Part shown: in pieces, positions 44,997 through 51,405 of the stretch
Position numbering within the stretch: position 1 is the stretch's first letter
How the letters are laid out: each line of letters begins with the position of its first letter
Assembly (NCBI GenBank): GCA_903873135.1
Contig: CAIQNH010000155.1
Coordinates: forward strand, 1-51,865
Direction of reading: 5' to 3'
Origin: an uncultured Actinomycetes bacterium
GTDB taxonomy: Bacteria; Actinomycetota; Acidimicrobiia; Acidimicrobiales; Microtrichaceae
Length of the DNA stretch: 51,865 bases
Translations under genes and position numbers: made by a program
Notes under the pieces: generated by a model
Database searches by the model: none
What the model saw: only the letters and a program-made list of their open reading frames with translations
What the model was told of the DNA's origin: nothing

Positions 44997-45728
44997 GTGA
45001 GCACGACCGGACCCGGTGGGTCGACCACCGCCGGCTCGGACGAGCCTGAGCGGGACGAACCTGAGCGGGACGAGGAGGCGACCGGCGAGGAGCAGGTCGC
45101 CAACTCGCCCCGGGAACGCGCCCTCGAGCTCGTCATCACCATCCTGTTGTCCCTCAGCGCCCTGCTGTCGGCCTGGTGCGCCTACCAGTCGACCCAGCTC
45201 AGCGGCGACCAGAGCCGGCTCGACACCCGGGCCTCGGTGCTGCAGCTCCAGGCGTTCCGGGCCGAGCAACGGGCCACCCAGCAGGCGCAGGCCGACCTGG
45301 GCGCCTTCGACCGCTGGCTGGAGGCCACCTCGGACGGGAACACCGTCCGGGCCAGCTTCGCCGAGCAGCGGTTCTCCACCGAGCTCGCCACCGCCTTCCG
45401 GGCGTGGCTGGCGCTCGACCCGCTGGTCGACCCCGACGCCCCGGGATCGCCGCTCGAGATGACCGAGTACGTGACCCCGGACGAGACCGCGTCGGTGCGC
45501 CTCGAGGCCGAGGCCCAGCGCTACGAGTCCACGGCGGAGGTGGCCGACGTGGCGGCCGGCGACTACGTCCTGGCGGTCGTCCTGCTCGCTGCGGCGCTGT
45601 TCCTGCTCGGGATCCAGTCGAGGATCGGCATCTTCGAGCTGCGGGCCGCCATGGTCACCGTGGCGGGGTTCATCGTCCTCGGGACCGGTCTGTGGGCCCT
45701 GCGTCTGCCGACCGAGGTCGCCCTCTGA
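44997..45728 (+). CDS. Three-helix membrane protein with central coiled region, unknown function
   Basis: A 243-residue protein. An acidic, Glu-rich N-terminus (about 1-38) precedes a transmembrane helix (ELVITILLSLSALLSAWCAY). A central hydrophilic helical region follows (TQLSGDQSRLDTRASVLQLQ, rich in Gln and Ala), then two C-terminal helices (YVLAVVLLAAALFLLGI and MVTVAGFIVLGTGLWAL). The layout loosely resembles DUF4337 proteins, but I do not claim that family. The adjacent GTG at 44994 is an alternative start. Its last 59 nt overlap the 3' end of the convergent MFS gene. Confidence 0.72.
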   Translation: MSTTGPGGSTTAGSDEPERDEPERDEEATGEEQVANSPRERALELVITILLSLSALLSAWCAYQSTQLSGDQSRLDTRASVLQLQAFRAEQRATQQAQADLGAFDRWLEATSDGNTVRASFAEQRFSTELATAFRAWLALDPLVDPDAPGSPLEMTEYVTPDETASVRLEAEAQRYESTAEVADVAAGDYVLAVVLLAAALFLLGIQSRIGIFELRAAMVTVAGFIVLGTGLWALRLPTEVAL

Positions 45729-47316
45729 CCCGACCGGGCGCAGCAGCCAGGATCGGCTCGACGGGCAGGCCCTTGGTGAGGAACGTCGACCCCACCACGA
45801 TCAGCCCGACGAGCAGGAGCCCGATCCGGAGTCCTTGGAGCTGGGCCTGACCGTAGGCGGCCACGATCGCCTCGGCCTCGGGCGGCGGGAGGGACGTCGA
45901 GTCGACCGCGGCGCGCACCTGGTCCACGGGGACGAACGACACCCCCGACTCGAGCGCCAACCCGACCTGGCCCTCGACCTCGTCGCTGACCGCCGGGTCG
46001 GAGGCGACCAGGGCGCCGAGTGCCGTCGCCAGGCCGCCGATGACCACCGCGCCGATCAGCGCGGTGCCGAGCGCGCCGCCGAACTGCTGCGCCGTCCACT
46101 GGAGCCCCCCGGCCTCGCTGCGTCCCGACTCGTCGACCGAGGACTGCACCACGTTGCCGAGCTGCGACGCGAGGAGTCCCATGCCCACGCCGAGCACGCC
46201 CATCGCCGCCAGGAAGGCCGGTCGGGCCAGATCGGGATCGACCAGCGACAGCAGCGCCACGTCGGCGACGAGGAGCACCACCAGGCCGGCCCGGACGATC
46301 GTGCGCGGCGACCACCGCCGACCGAGCAGCGGTCCTGCAGCCGACGTCAGGAACAGCGCGACCGACACCGGGAGCATCAGGACACCGGTCTCGAGCGCGT
46401 CGAAGCCCTGGACCACCTGCAGGTACAGCGGGATCGAGAAGAAGATCCCCATGAGGATGAGGTTCTGGGCGGTGAACATGGTGAGCCCGGCCCGCAACGG
46501 GACGATCCGGAGGCGGTCCAGGTGGACGAGCGGCTCTCGGCCGATCGCCTCCCGGTGACGCTCCCACCGGACGAACAGGCCGAGCACCACGAGGCCGGCG
46601 CACACGACGAAGGGGGTGAGGGCGAGCCCGAAGGGTTCGACCGGCGAGTTCCTCGGATCCAGCCACCCCCAGGTGCTCGACTGCAGGACGCCGTAGACGA
46701 CCAGCCCGAGTCCGGTCGCCGACAGCGCCGAGCCGACCACGTCGAGCTCGGGGGGTTCGGCGTCCCGCTCCGGCTCCCTGATCCAGCGGACGAACAGCAG
46801 GATGAGGACCGCGACCACGACCTCGCCGGCGAACACCACGCGCCACGAGAGGTTGGTCGTGACCCACCCGCCCAGGATCGGGCCGACGGCCACGCCGGCG
46901 CCTGCGATCCCGCCCATGACGCCGTAGGCCGCCGCCCGGTCCCGACCCTCGAAGTTGCCGGCGACCAGTGCCACCATCGCCGGCATCACGAGCGCCGCCC
47001 CGATGCCCTCGATCACCGACCACCCGAGGGTCAGCACCCCCACGTTCCACGACACCGCCGTGATCGCGGAGCCGACGGCGTAGACACCGAGTCCGATCCC
47101 GAAGGCCCGACGTCGCCCCCACCGGTCGCCGAGCTTCCCGCCCGTGATCATGAGCGCAGCCATGACGAGGGCGTAGAAGGTGATCGCCGCCTGGATGCTC
47201 GTCACGTCGGTGTCGAGGTCCTCGACCAGCTGGCTGATCGAGACGTTCATCACCGCCTGGTCCAGGACCATGAGGAACTGGGCCGCCCCCAGGACGACGA
47301 GGACTCGACGGTTCAC
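45670..47316 (-). CDS. MFS drug exporter, DHA2 (EmrB/QacA-like, 14 helices)
   Basis: A 548-residue proton-driven exporter. Motif A GGKLGDRWGRRRAFG follows helix 2, the Asp of helix 1 lies in VLDQAVMNVSISQL, and motif C GIAGAGVAVGPILGGW marks it as an antiporter. The length and extra central helices fit the 14-helix DHA2 group. GTG at 47316 begins the conserved N-terminus; there is no strong Shine-Dalgarno sequence. A TACGGT at 47382-47387 could be its -10, with a leader of about 60 nt. The substrate is unknown. The tail overlaps the convergent upstream gene. Confidence 0.9.
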   Translation of the reverse strand: MNRRVLVVLGAAQFLMVLDQAVMNVSISQLVEDLDTDVTSIQAAITFYALVMAALMITGGKLGDRWGRRRAFGIGLGVYAVGSAITAVSWNVGVLTLGWSVIEGIGAALVMPAMVALVAGNFEGRDRAAAYGVMGGIAGAGVAVGPILGGWVTTNLSWRVVFAGEVVVAVLILLFVRWIREPERDAEPPELDVVGSALSATGLGLVVYGVLQSSTWGWLDPRNSPVEPFGLALTPFVVCAGLVVLGLFVRWERHREAIGREPLVHLDRLRIVPLRAGLTMFTAQNLILMGIFFSIPLYLQVVQGFDALETGVLMLPVSVALFLTSAAGPLLGRRWSPRTIVRAGLVVLLVADVALLSLVDPDLARPAFLAAMGVLGVGMGLLASQLGNVVQSSVDESGRSEAGGLQWTAQQFGGALGTALIGAVVIGGLATALGALVASDPAVSDEVEGQVGLALESGVSFVPVDQVRAAVDSTSLPPPEAEAIVAAYGQAQLQGLRIGLLLVGLIVVGSTFLTKGLPVEPILAAAPGRVRGRPRSADAGPTDRSRGR

Positions 47317-47431: not shown

Positions 47432-47668
47432 TCAGGGGCAGGCGTGGACGGCGGGTGCCCGCTCGGTGGAGGCCGGGAACGACTCGAGGAGCGCCTCGTC
47501 CCGGGGAGGTCGGGCCACCAGGGCGCCCCCGCAGTTCGGACACACACCTCCCAGGTGCTCGGCGCACGCCTCGCACCAGGTGCACTCGAACGAGCAGATG
47601 CGGGCGTCCCGACCCGTCGGGTCCAGGTCCCGGTCACAGCACTCGCAGTTGGGCTTCAGGGTCAGCAC
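47432..47668 (-). CDS. DUF1272 zinc-ribbon-like protein
   Basis: A 78-residue cysteine-rich protein. The N-terminal 55 residues match DUF1272 closely: LTLKPNCECCDRDLDP, ICSFECTWCEACAEH and GGVCPNCGGALVARPPR, with cysteines able to bind two zinc ions. Function unknown. GTG at 47668 is chosen because GGAGGAC precedes it and because family members begin at this point. It lies 37 nt after the CGNR regulator gene and is probably the last gene of the RidA operon. Confidence 0.88.
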   Translation of the reverse strand: MLTLKPNCECCDRDLDPTGRDARICSFECTWCEACAEHLGGVCPNCGGALVARPPRDEALLESFPASTERAPAVHACP

Positions 47669-47705
47669 GGTGTCCTCCTCGGTGGACGGTGGGTCAGGGT
47701 TGCGC

Positions 47706-48275
47706 TCAGCCCTCGGTGTGCTCCGCACGTCGTCGGCGGTGCGCAGCGAGGTTCACCCGGTTGCCGCAACGCTGGGCAGAGCACCAGCGACGACGACCGG
47801 GGCGGGACGAGTCGTGGAACAACAGCGCGCACGCCGGTCCCTCGCAGGCCCGGAGGCGACCGTCGTCGGCCGACAGCAGGTCCACGGCGTCGAGCGCCAC
47901 CGCGGCGAGCGCGCTCTCGACCTCGGCTCCGGGACGCAGGCGTACCGTGGCCGCACCCGACGGCGACAGCTCCAGGTACGGCGCCGGGCGTGCCGCGTGG
48001 TCGTTGATCACGGCGCGGTCGACGGGTCGCACCCGGCGGCCGTCCACCACGGCCCGGGCGGCGTCGTGGATCGCCTCCCGGAGGCGGACCGCCTCGGCGA
48101 GCAGCCCGTCGGACACGGTCTCGGTGACCGGTGCGACTGCGGCGGTGACCCAGCGGGCGAGGTCGGGGGGTCCGACCAGGAGTTCGGTCGGCGCCACCGC
48201 CCGGTACCGGAGGGTCCACGTGAGGTCGAGCGCCAGCCGCCCGTCCAGGATGAACGCGGGCTCGTCGACGCTCAC
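47706..48275 (-). CDS. CGNR zinc-finger (ABATE-domain) putative transcription regulator
   Basis: A 189-residue protein with an N-terminal ABATE-type domain (LDLTWTLRYRAV, helical LREAIHDAARAVVDGRRV) and a C-terminal CGNR zinc finger. The finger reads CEGPACALLFHDSSRPGRRR, then WCSAQRCGNRVNLAAHRRR, with all four zinc cysteines present. Such proteins are treated as stress-related DNA-binding regulators, but their targets are mostly unknown. GTG at 48275 overlaps the RidA stop (GTGA). A perfect palindrome at the operon promoter is a likely site for this protein. Confidence 0.9.
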   Translation of the reverse strand: MSVDEPAFILDGRLALDLTWTLRYRAVAPTELLVGPPDLARWVTAAVAPVTETVSDGLLAEAVRLREAIHDAARAVVDGRRVRPVDRAVINDHAARPAPYLELSPSGAATVRLRPGAEVESALAAVALDAVDLLSADDGRLRACEGPACALLFHDSSRPGRRRWCSAQRCGNRVNLAAHRRRRAEHTEG

Positions 48276-48757
48276 GTCGGCCCGTCACGCACGTCGAGGA
48301 CGGCCTCGATCTCGAGCACCAGGTCGCCCGGGAGCGCGGCCACGCCGACGGCGAGCCTGGCGTGGCGGCCGGCGTCGCCGAGGACCGCCACCAGCAGCTC
48401 CGAGGCCGCGTCGATCACGCTGGTCTGGCCGGTGAAGTCCGGCGTGGAGTTGACGACCCCGTGGACGTGCACGACCCGTTCCACCCGGTCGAGCGAGCCC
48501 AGCTCCGACCGGACGGTCGACAGGAGGTTGATCGCCGCCGAACGCGCCGCGAGCCGCGCCTCCTCGGCGTCGACCCGGGCGCCGACGGTCCCGGTGTGGA
48601 TGGTCCCGTCGGGTCGGGTTCCGAAGTGCCCGCCGACCCACAGCTGGTGACCGGACCGGACGGCGGGGACGTACTCACCGAAGGACGGGACGGGCTCGGG
48701 CAGCTCGATCCCCAGGTCCCTCAGGCGCTGCTCGGGGGTGGGCTGCTGGCTGGCCAC
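48272..48757 (-). CDS. RidA-family (YjgF/YER057c/UK114) protein
   Basis: A 161-residue enamine/imine deaminase-family protein. Family elements are LWVGGHFGTRPDGTIHTG, the helix AARSAAINLLSTVRSELGSL, VVNSTPDFTGQTSVIDAASE and RHARLAVGVAALPGDLVLEI. Arg134 aligns with the catalytic Arg105 of E. coli RidA, so deaminase activity is plausible. It is longer than the 128-residue archetype because of an N-terminal extension. GTG at 48757 has TACACT ending exactly 6 nt upstream. It leads the operon with the CGNR and DUF1272 genes. Confidence 0.92.
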   Translation of the reverse strand: MASQQPTPEQRLRDLGIELPEPVPSFGEYVPAVRSGHQLWVGGHFGTRPDGTIHTGTVGARVDAEEARLAARSAAINLLSTVRSELGSLDRVERVVHVHGVVNSTPDFTGQTSVIDAASELLVAVLGDAGRHARLAVGVAALPGDLVLEIEAVLDVRDGPT

Positions 48758-48763
48758 CTCCGG

Positions 48764-48769
48764 AGTGTA
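48764..48769 (-). promoter_or_regulatory. Leaderless-type -10 (TACACT) for RidA operon
   Basis: Minus-strand TACACT ends exactly 6 nt before the GTG at 48757; perfect TANNNT match. A palindromic operator begins one base further upstream. Confidence 0.55.
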
Positions 48770-48770
48770 C

Positions 48771-48791
48771 GACAGAGGTCATACCTCTGTC
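48771..48791. promoter_or_regulatory. Perfect palindromic operator upstream of RidA-CGNR-DUF1272 operon
   Basis: Arms GACAGAGGT (48771-48779) and ACCTCTGTC (48783-48791) are exact complements around a CAT spacer. The site occupies the spacer and -35 region of the operon promoter (-10 at 48764-48769), the classic place for a repressor. The 27 nt between it and the next gene hold nothing else. Confidence 0.7.
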
Positions 48792-48818
48792 TCGGTCCGG
48801 TCGGCGCGGGAGGACCGG

Positions 48819-49802: not shown

Positions 49803-50927
49803 CTAGCCGACGTGGGGTGTCCGGAGCACCACCCGACTCAGGTGGACCGGTTCGGCGACCCCGGACAGGTCGTGGAGACCGAGTGGCTCCACCTCCCACG
49901 AGGCAGGGTCGAGCGTTCGCTCGACCTCCGCGGTCACCACGACGCCGCCCGGCACGGCGAGTTTCCCGGCCCGAGCCACGGTGTTGACCAGCGGACCGAA
50001 GTAGTCCCCGTCCCTCGCCGTCACCACACCGAAGCCGACCGCACCCCGTGCGCTGGGCAGGTCGAGGTCACGCTCGGCCAGGTCGCAGATCCCGAGCGCG
50101 ACCTCGGTGAGCTGTCCCGGATCGTCGCCCACCACCATCGCCTCGTCGCCGATCAGCTTGACCAGCCGGGCACCGTGCTCGGCCGCCACCGCAGCCGCCT
50201 GCATCTCGAAGCGACGCAGGGCCGCCGTGTGTCGGGACGCGTCGACGTCCTCGGCCCAACTGGTGGATCCGACCAGGTCCACGAAGGCGACCGCTGACCG
50301 CAGCTCGCCCGCCATCAGCGAGTGGACGAACCCGACGTCCCGGAGCGCCTGTTCCGTCAGCAGGTGCTGCACGATGGAGCCCACCTGGACCCAGGCGGCG
50401 ATGGCTGTCTCGTTCGCCTGCGACCACTCCAGCTCGGTGCGCCGCTGGCCTCCCGACTCCGAGCTGCTCCCGAACATGGCCCGGGCCGCCTCCATCATCC
50501 GCGCCGTGGACCAGCCCAGCACCCGGACGAACGACAGCGTGTCGTCCCGGCCGAAGAGCTCGACCCCGAGCAGGTAGGTGGACAGATCCTCGACCACCGT
50601 CTCCGGCATGGACGGCACCTGAGGATCGACGACGGGGAAGCCGAGTGCCTGCCGCATCTCGACCACGGTTGCCACCGGCACGCCGGCCCGGTCCGCCGCC
50701 TCGACAGCGCTGATCAAGGGTGGTGGTCGATCGACCGACCGTGCGGCGACGCCCATCACGTGCGACCTCGCCGCCCAGGCGACGATCTCGTCGACCTCGA
50801 AGCGCTCCAGCAGGTGTGCGAGCAGCTCGACGCGTTGGTCTGCGGTCGGTGCGTCGGGGTCGAACAGTCCCGCTGCTCGGAGCGCAGCCAGCGCTGCCGG
50901 GTCGATCGGAGGATCCACCTCGTCCAC
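49803..50927 (-). CDS. Class III adenylate/guanylate cyclase with N-terminal regulatory domain
   Basis: A 374-residue soluble cyclase. Residues 1-205 form a helical regulatory region of the type seen before many actinobacterial cyclase domains. The catalytic domain follows, with metal-binding Asp217 (AFVDLVGST) and Asp261 (LIGDEAM), Lys257 at the purine-selecting position, and Asn315/Arg319 in NTVAR. All key residues are present, so cAMP synthesis is likely. GTG at 50927 is supported by TACCCT ending 7 nt upstream; a longer frame to 51200 would cover the intergenic region. It is the second cyclase-domain protein of the window. Confidence 0.88.
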   Translation of the reverse strand: MDEVDPPIDPAALAALRAAGLFDPDAPTADQRVELLAHLLERFEVDEIVAWAARSHVMGVAARSVDRPPPLISAVEAADRAGVPVATVVEMRQALGFPVVDPQVPSMPETVVEDLSTYLLGVELFGRDDTLSFVRVLGWSTARMMEAARAMFGSSSESGGQRRTELEWSQANETAIAAWVQVGSIVQHLLTEQALRDVGFVHSLMAGELRSAVAFVDLVGSTSWAEDVDASRHTAALRRFEMQAAAVAAEHGARLVKLIGDEAMVVGDDPGQLTEVALGICDLAERDLDLPSARGAVGFGVVTARDGDYFGPLVNTVARAGKLAVPGGVVVTAEVERTLDPASWEVEPLGLHDLSGVAEPVHLSRVVLRTPHVG

Positions 50928-50934
50928 GGGCCAC

Positions 50935-50940
50935 AGGGTA
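50935..50940 (-). promoter_or_regulatory. Leaderless-type -10 (TACCCT) for cyclase gene
   Basis: Minus-strand TACCCT ends 7 nt before the GTG at 50927; perfect TANNNT match. Confidence 0.5.
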
Positions 50941-51063
50941 GGCCCACCACGTCCCCCTCCCGACAGGTGCACGACACCCGACCACCACCGTTCGTGCTGG
51001 AGGTCGTCGTTCGCGGAACCCTCCCCGGGGAATGTCGGCGGCTCCGTACGAGTTCTCGCTCCC

Positions 51064-51405
51064 GTGCAGTTCCCGGCCGTCCTCGGTGCCAGCGTGTCGG
51101 TCCTCGCAGGCCTGCTGGGCCTGATCTGGCCGCAACAGGTGAGCAGGGTCGTGGGCCTCGAGCTCCCGGGACGGCTGGGAGTCTCCGAGTTCCGCGCCAC
51201 CTACGGCGGGCTCTTCATCGGTGCCGGTGTCGCCGTGCTCGTCATCGGGTCCGCAGACGCTGCGCTCGTGCTCGGCGCTGCGTGGCTCGGAGCGTTCGCC
51301 GCCCGGGTGGTGTCACTGGTGGTCGACCGGAGCGTCTCCCGGGAGAACCTGGCCGGGTGCGCGATCGAGCTGACCGTCGGCGGCCTGCTCGCCATCGGCC
51401 GCTGA
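51064..51405 (+). CDS. Small four-helix membrane protein (DUF4345-like)
   Basis: A 113-residue hydrophobic protein with about four helices. It contains VSEFRATYGGLFIGAGVAVL, the RAxYGGLxxGxG pattern common in DUF4345-type proteins, and ends with LTVGGLLAIGR. Function unknown. GTG at 51064 is taken as start; no clear Shine-Dalgarno sequence or well-spaced -10 is visible. It is divergent from the cyclase gene and converges on a broken SRPBCC gene. Confidence 0.7.
   Translation: MQFPAVLGASVSVLAGLLGLIWPQQVSRVVGLELPGRLGVSEFRATYGGLFIGAGVAVLVIGSADAALVLGAAWLGAFAARVVSLVVDRSVSRENLAGCAIELTVGGLLAIGR

Follow-up and report, generated by a model that had tools for sequence, protein, structure and literature searches.

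A conserved palindrome at a RidA-CGNR-DUF1272 operon as a predicted operator of ABATE-CGNR regulators

Autoregulated one-component repressors of the TetR, MarR and GntR types control detoxification or efflux genes. For the ABATE-CGNR family, which carries the Pfam name 'putative stress-induced transcription regulator', a structure has been available since 2009 (Jann_2411, 3h0n; PMC2954205). The accessible portion of that paper reports a dimer of Jann_2411 as likely, counts Lys177 with the conserved charged residues that may form a nucleic-acid site and gives a general hint at ligand-controlled DNA binding, and the words operator and palindrome are absent from its main text as available (PMC2954205). 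In Bordetella, the CGNR gene bp3097 was strongly raised along with the molybdate transport genes bp3094 and bp3095, which bear nearby numbers, according to the accessible part of the report (PMC9976334). No DNA target or binding site for the ABATE-CGNR family was found in the available text of the open-licence papers found on this family and on DUF1272. Among Rid proteins, the Rid1 imine deaminases PA0814 and ACIAD3089 act on 2-aminoacrylate and several amino-acid imines, as given in the available part of their description (PMC5619798), and the words CGNR, DUF1272 and DUF1470 are absent from the main text, as available, of a 2015 comparative genomics study of Rid (PMC4433059).

The locus described here lies in the window, that is, the whole stretch of 51,865 nt of DNA that was analysed, and comprises the following features:

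48788-48793, minus strand: putative −35 element GAGACA, placed with the aid of the aligned clade loci
48771-48791, no strand assigned: predicted 21-bp operator, GACAGAGGT-N3-ACCTCTGTC, from the letters and the fixed distance to the RidA start
48764-48769, minus strand: putative −10 element TACACT, placed with the aid of the aligned clade loci
48272-48757, minus strand: Rid protein, 161 aa, likely leaderless GTG start (Pfam, solved relatives)
47706-48275, minus strand: ABATE + zf-CGNR regulator, 189 aa, proposed specificity residue Asn175 (CGNRV-N) (Pfam, fold, alignment)
47432-47668, minus strand: DUF1272 Cys-rich protein, 78 aa from GTG 47668 (Pfam, clade comparison)

Like the autoregulated repressors of the TetR, MarR and GntR types, this regulator would act as a dimer on a palindrome over its own promoter, with enzyme or exporter genes as neighbours, both the dimer and the binding being predicted for CGNR. 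Unlike them, the window protein carries a treble-clef zinc finger and not a helix-turn-helix, and its sensor would be the ABATE domain.

The three proteins and their described relatives

All three products match Pfam families, namely Rid (PF14588/PF01042; 62.7 bits for PF14588, cut-off 35), ABATE with zf-CGNR (PF07336 and PF11706; 70.6 bits for ABATE against a Pfam cut-off of 24.4 and 63.1 bits for zf-CGNR against 24) and DUF1272 (PF06906; 87.7 bits, cut-off 25.3). In the regulator, C144, C149, C165, C170, G171, N172 and R173 are invariant across 12 aligned sequences. Its structure model (mean pLDDT 75, with the finger helix poorly modelled) matches 3h0n at E 3.5e-6 with a TM score of 0.62, the only PDB match under E 0.001, and the profile match to the same entry reaches E 2.7e-11. 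Jann_2411 is the founding ABATE + CGNR protein and shares with the window protein the two domains, the zinc-finger cysteines and the CxNR motif at 24% identity in the structural alignment. Lys177 of Jann_2411 lies five residues past Cys172 and aligns with the window residue five past the fourth finger cysteine (Cys4+5), which is Lys in Jann_2411 and Asn in the window protein.

In the Rid protein, Arg134 is invariant in eight aligned sequences, the window included, and falls opposite an Arg in both 3d01 and 9bk9; its putative match to the catalytic Arg-105 of RidA was made by eye. Five solved relatives of this protein were found at E 0.01, among them PA0814 and ACIAD3089 of the Rid1 subfamily. 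Since imine deaminases stand among these relatives, an imine or enamine is plausible as a putative signal for the ABATE-CGNR regulator. For DUF1272 outside the operon, no partner common to all was found in six of 15 loci (10 of 15 selected frames scanned with Pfam), and a chaperonin-family frame was seen at two such loci.

The palindrome, its promoter and its conservation in the clade

An earlier note on this DNA had described three co-directional genes, with a GTGA overlap and a gap of 37 nt, behind a perfect palindrome on the promoter beside a TACACT −10, and this description holds in the coordinates and in the letters. The GTGA overlap joins RidA (48757-48272) to CGNR (48275-47706), and 37 nt separate the CGNR stop from the likely DUF1272 start (GTG 47668). 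The palindrome, GACAGAGGT-CAT-ACCTCTGTC at 48771-48791, is a perfect 9+3+9 repeat with arms complementary at 9/9 positions. On the minus strand the order is GAGACA (48793-48788), an 18-nt spacer, TACACT (48769-48764), CCGGAG and GTG (48757-48755), with the palindrome beginning within the −35, occupying the spacer and stopping 1 nt short of the −10. The GTG of RidA follows the −10 by 6 nt, which is a leaderless layout, and the RidA promoter is apparently leaderless on this sequence. A sigma-70 consensus scan called no promoter at the palindrome, GAGACA being a poor −35. With up to three mismatches allowed, the window has a single match to the palindrome pattern, where shuffles give an expectation of 0.03. 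The whole 3.18-Mb genome, which has one zf-CGNR match, contains one perfect copy and one copy with two mismatches; the latter, the sole other copy, is close to where a 401-aa open frame starts and was rejected as a second target in this genome.

A search at E 1e-15 gave a CGNR match in 14 of 198 relatives, the genome itself counted among them, and nine of the other 13 reach 60% or more CGNR identity. In all nine of these, CGNR lies between Rid and DUF1272 sequence, and the palindrome stands at the Rid start with up to a few changes. Three further loci carry the palindrome (L062, L230 and L231), so that it is found at all 13 RidA-CGNR loci found in the clade, in agreement with the earlier proposal of an operator on the promoter, kept at the RidA start. 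Likewise conserved is the association of RidA and CGNR with each other and with DUF1272, which is present at 12 of the 13 loci and has no match in the L231 stretch. In L062, the CGNR protein is 45% identical, DUF1272 is divergent across the site, and the arms form a perfect 18+3+18 palindrome. In 12/12 aligned loci, as in L062, 13 nt separate the end of the site from the RidA start, and the aligned loci show no change in 12 of the 21 site columns (GACA, A, GT, ACC, TG). Within the same alignment, GACA of the −35 region is invariant and T at −36 occurs in 10/12 loci, and in the −10 the T is kept in 10/12, the A in 11/12 and the last T in 12/12.

The palindrome lies 27 nt past the stop of an upstream HTH_67 gene and could fold as a 9-bp stem, and an RNA hairpin or terminator ending that gene would account for it in principle; this reading is highly improbable. 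The palindrome has no T-run, a terminator scan at its position called none, and the site stays while a search of the 13 relative stretches, some of them short, detects no HTH_67 at E 1e-5; its distance to the RidA start is fixed and most arm changes are one-sided. Because arm mismatches in the 12 aligned loci are few and mostly one-sided, the palindrome is better taken as a protein site than as an RNA stem. The HTH_67 gene was rejected on the same search (no match at E 1e-5 in 13 relative stretches, that of L018 holding only about 350 nt upstream) as a regulator or member of the operon. Similarly, the MFS exporter gene at 45670-47316 was rejected as a member of the system, since no counterpart was detected at E 1e-5 in these 13 stretches, of which L024 and L026 end soon after the DUF1272 start.

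Some further features of the clade loci were noted. In genome G005 (L020:6431-6619), the Rid frame is split in two with operator, CGNR and DUF1272 intact, which may be an assembly fault, and in L026 a contig end cuts DUF1272. In G019, the contig ends of L037/L055 (C196) and L018 (C226) share the operator and the Rid start with only 10 nt in common upstream, so that the RidA operon seems to occur in two contexts in this genome; the second copy was rejected as a new target, as it has the same RidA start at another contig end, with 98/98 nt downstream identical. The minus strand at 49803-51200 encodes a protein in which regulatory and catalytic domains of adenylate cyclase are combined; in L018, L019, L022 and L023 the operon has long matches to this protein next to it.

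The distribution of the site was compared with that of CGNR and of its partners. In all nine of the 198 genomes with a site of at most one mismatch, the site is at the RidA start. At up to three mismatches, sites occur in 21 genomes, 10 at the RidA operon and 11 elsewhere; every off-operon match is at three mismatches, and a reversed control pattern has matches in 22 of the 198 genomes by our count. A search for the partner genes covered 61 genomes, in which neither those with a Rid homologue (44-52% identity) and no close CGNR (G018, G027, G035, G042 and G055) nor those with DUF1272 and no close CGNR (G010, G017, G035, G050 and G053; G035 thus appears in both lists) have a site at three or fewer mismatches. 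Genome G009, with a Lys-class CGNR and DUF1272, lacks the window-type site, and L061, whose CGNR is 52% identical, has neither an adjoining RidA nor the site. Conservation and linkage to CGNR are plain at the level of these sequences. The 13 clade loci share ancestry, and their conservation could therefore reflect another regulator of the same operon.

Such a regulator might be a GntR protein of the FadR type, whose operators have the style GGT-N3-ACC, with CGNR as a bystander or a co-regulated partner; we regard this as quite unlikely. The palindrome core GGT-N3-ACC does resemble FadR/GntR sites, and in G166, which lacks a close CGNR, a three-mismatch look-alike stands before a gene recognised by eye as GntR-like. 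Against this, no GntR protein occurs among the six neighbouring window proteins scanned with Pfam, and off-operon matches at three mismatches occur in 11 of the 198 genomes, compared with 22 for the reversed control. The look-alike itself, AAAAGAGGTTAGACCTCTGTT, precedes the gene at L056:4062-4853. The earlier note had named as decisive against CGNR that the palindrome be absent from orthologous operons and present before an unrelated regulator. The proposal was not refuted in this way: the palindrome is present at 13 of the 13 orthologous operons found, and before an unrelated regulator stands this one look-alike, at a level at which the reversed control matches as well.

Sites and finger residues in the wider ABATE-CGNR family

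An ABATE match was found in 95 of 296 sampled genomes of the phylum, with up to nine per genome. Named genomes were scanned with the 12-sequence alignment, and the best 80 of 203 confirmed CGNR loci were taken. A width-21 palindrome with perfect outer six bases lies near the CGNR start in 36 of these 80, compared with 4.2 (maximum 7) in shuffles and 7.0 (maximum 11) elsewhere in the same loci, the controls for the wider family being other positions and not other promoters; start codons here, in the phylum sample and in a later wider sample were assigned by rule, in some cases downstream of the true one. In the same best 80 of 203, widths 19 (34 loci) and 23 (21 loci) were also raised, partly as nested forms, as was width 32 (14 loci vs 3.2 in shuffles), and the Lys class described below had small excesses at other spacings too. 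Typical site forms, by eye, are GTAACCAGTTATAGTGGTTAC-ATG and GACACCACTTATAGTGGTGTC, which contain a −10-like TATAGT 6 nt before the start codon.

At 13 loci, a site of 21 bp, in some cases an imperfect palindrome, forms the whole gap between two possible divergent start codons; these come from a scan of 212 loci with 14 pattern matches, of which L151, with an opposite frame of 6 aa, was dropped. By sequence, the opposite gene is glyoxalase-like at 12 of the 13 and Rid at one (one representative of each scanned). With CGNR constant, the partners vary and include glyoxalase-like, Rid, MFS, CMD, cupin, BKACE, ketopantoate reductase and zinc dehydrogenase proteins (nine representatives scanned), and a Rid gene of another type is on the opposite strand in 13 of 84 loci (the best 80 of 203 plus L027-L030). 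A foreign regulator is argued against by such sites of one size, 21 bp, at CGNR genes with different partners.

In the phylum sample, 15 of 87 ABATE loci (the window's own row, L165, dropped) have perfect width-21 sites, vs 7.15 (maximum 13) at other positions; five repeats were dropped from the later wider sample. A fixed size of 21 bp was rejected as a rule for the whole family, the phylum, class and second-phylum samples being too weak, so that the 21-bp frame belongs to part of the ABATE-CGNR family. Other elements were seen by eye. The CGNR genes L185-L221, of the Asn or His class and outside the window's clade, have GTAAGG or GTCAGG (GTAAGGAGTCAA or GTCAGGAGTCAAC) beside the start with partial inverted copies upstream, perhaps another type of operator. 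Upstream of the CGNR genes of L248, L249 and L253, which belong to the second phylum sample, inverted GTAAC arms span about 32 bp, roughly one helical turn beyond 21 bp.

The residue at Cys4+5 was read from 206 loci and the window, left after six duplicates were dropped; three had no readable residue, and the remaining 204 proteins were classed as Lys (129), Arg (36), Asn (26), His (8), Ser (3) and Ala (2). Where 21-bp palindromes have perfect arms, the Lys class shows CC at bases 5-6 in 35/36 and the Arg class CG or TG in 7/11, and the two His palindromes fit no site form. The motif [AC]ACC-N9-GGT[TG] lies within 150 nt upstream in 70/129 Lys loci (control mean 1.9), 1/36 Arg, 0/26 Asn and 0/13 others, hence 1/75 of all non-Lys loci. 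Within the same distance, CACG-N9-CGTG occurs in 4/36 Arg and 1/129 Lys loci and CATG-N9-CATG in 4/36 and 0/129, together 8/36 vs 1/129. The GACAGAGGT form, sought within 750 nt because operons of the window type start with Rid, was found by strict pattern in 13/26 Asn loci, those of the window's clade, and in 0/178 of the rest. The form of their own class is lacking in 59/129 Lys, 28/36 Arg and 13/26 Asn loci. Site sequence thus goes with the Cys4+5 residue in these sequences (Lys with ACC..GGT, Arg with CACG or CATG, Asn with GACAGAGGT), residue and site forms having been picked from the same loci on which they were counted, and with a relaxed or hand-set site for the window clade in the classing and the tree (eight by hand in the tree).

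This link is confounded by relatedness. By clusters of 60% identity, the ACC motif occurs in 24/65 Lys clusters and 1/35 others, and at 50% identity in 12/39 and 1/21; the Lys-class motif is found in 17/41 of the phylum sample and in 1/21 of the class and second-phylum samples together. A quick tree of 58 rows, built without the finger end and with 25 of 55 inner branches weak, many of them deep, has seven residue changes and 13 changes of positions 5-6. On it, the ACC form spreads over many Lys branches, the CG/TG Arg forms turn up at two or more points, and a single clade takes in the Asn rows that have sites. Paralogues within G350 differ at positions 2-3 (GTAACC, GTCACC and GGAACC). That site sequence tracks the finger residue of CGNR counts against a foreign regulator of the GntR kind, as such a regulator would not explain the association.

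A repressor model and its meaning

A dimeric CGNR protein probably binds the 21-bp palindrome and represses its own operon until released by a ligand, with relatives acting alike. The CGNR protein would be a dimeric zinc-finger one-component transcription factor, and its dimer would sit on the palindrome and cover the −35 and the spacer in the apparently leaderless promoter of RidA, so that RNA polymerase would be blocked and RidA, CGNR and DUF1272 repressed. A small molecule, plausibly a reactive metabolite removed by the partner enzymes, would bind to the ABATE domain and release CGNR. Related ABATE-CGNR proteins would each use a 21-bp palindrome close to the start of their own gene and built on this frame, which is GNNA-XX-N9-XX-TNNC in most, with the bases at positions 5-6 going with the residue five past the fourth finger cysteine. 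Within this model, the sequence comparisons give good support to binding of the palindrome by CGNR and to autoregulation, which the earlier note had suggested and with which the site at all 13 RidA-CGNR loci found is consistent; for repression and ligand release we infer a mechanism of the kind described.

CGNR might instead work as an activator in the manner of MerR, whose promoters have a spacer of 19-20 bp with the dyad between −35 and −10, the dimer realigning the elements of a long spacer. The operator does fill the −35/−10 spacer in the window clade, and L231 has a good −35, TTGACA; the spacer, however, is 18 bp, and many Lys-class operators cover the −10 and abut the start codon, a place typical of repression, so that activation of this kind appears unlikely.

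For the repressor model, the reach within the family is an evenly balanced question: in at least one large branch, ABATE-CGNR proteins may be self-regulating repressors of detoxification or efflux modules, in which the finger residue sets bases 5-6. On the same even footing, the dimer may read GNNA-XX-N9-XX-TNNC, with Lys taking CC, Arg CG or TG and Asn GA at the XX bases, and other positions may keep the paralogues of one genome apart. With the same even odds, the 21-bp operator may in some streptomycetes be the entire control region of two divergent leaderless genes. The partner genes suggest that ABATE-CGNR regulators sense reactive small metabolites or drugs. For the ABATE-CGNR regulators, of which a structure was already known, the comparisons point to a predicted DNA target, and with a predicted operator and a predicted specificity residue in hand, ABATE-CGNR function becomes directly testable.
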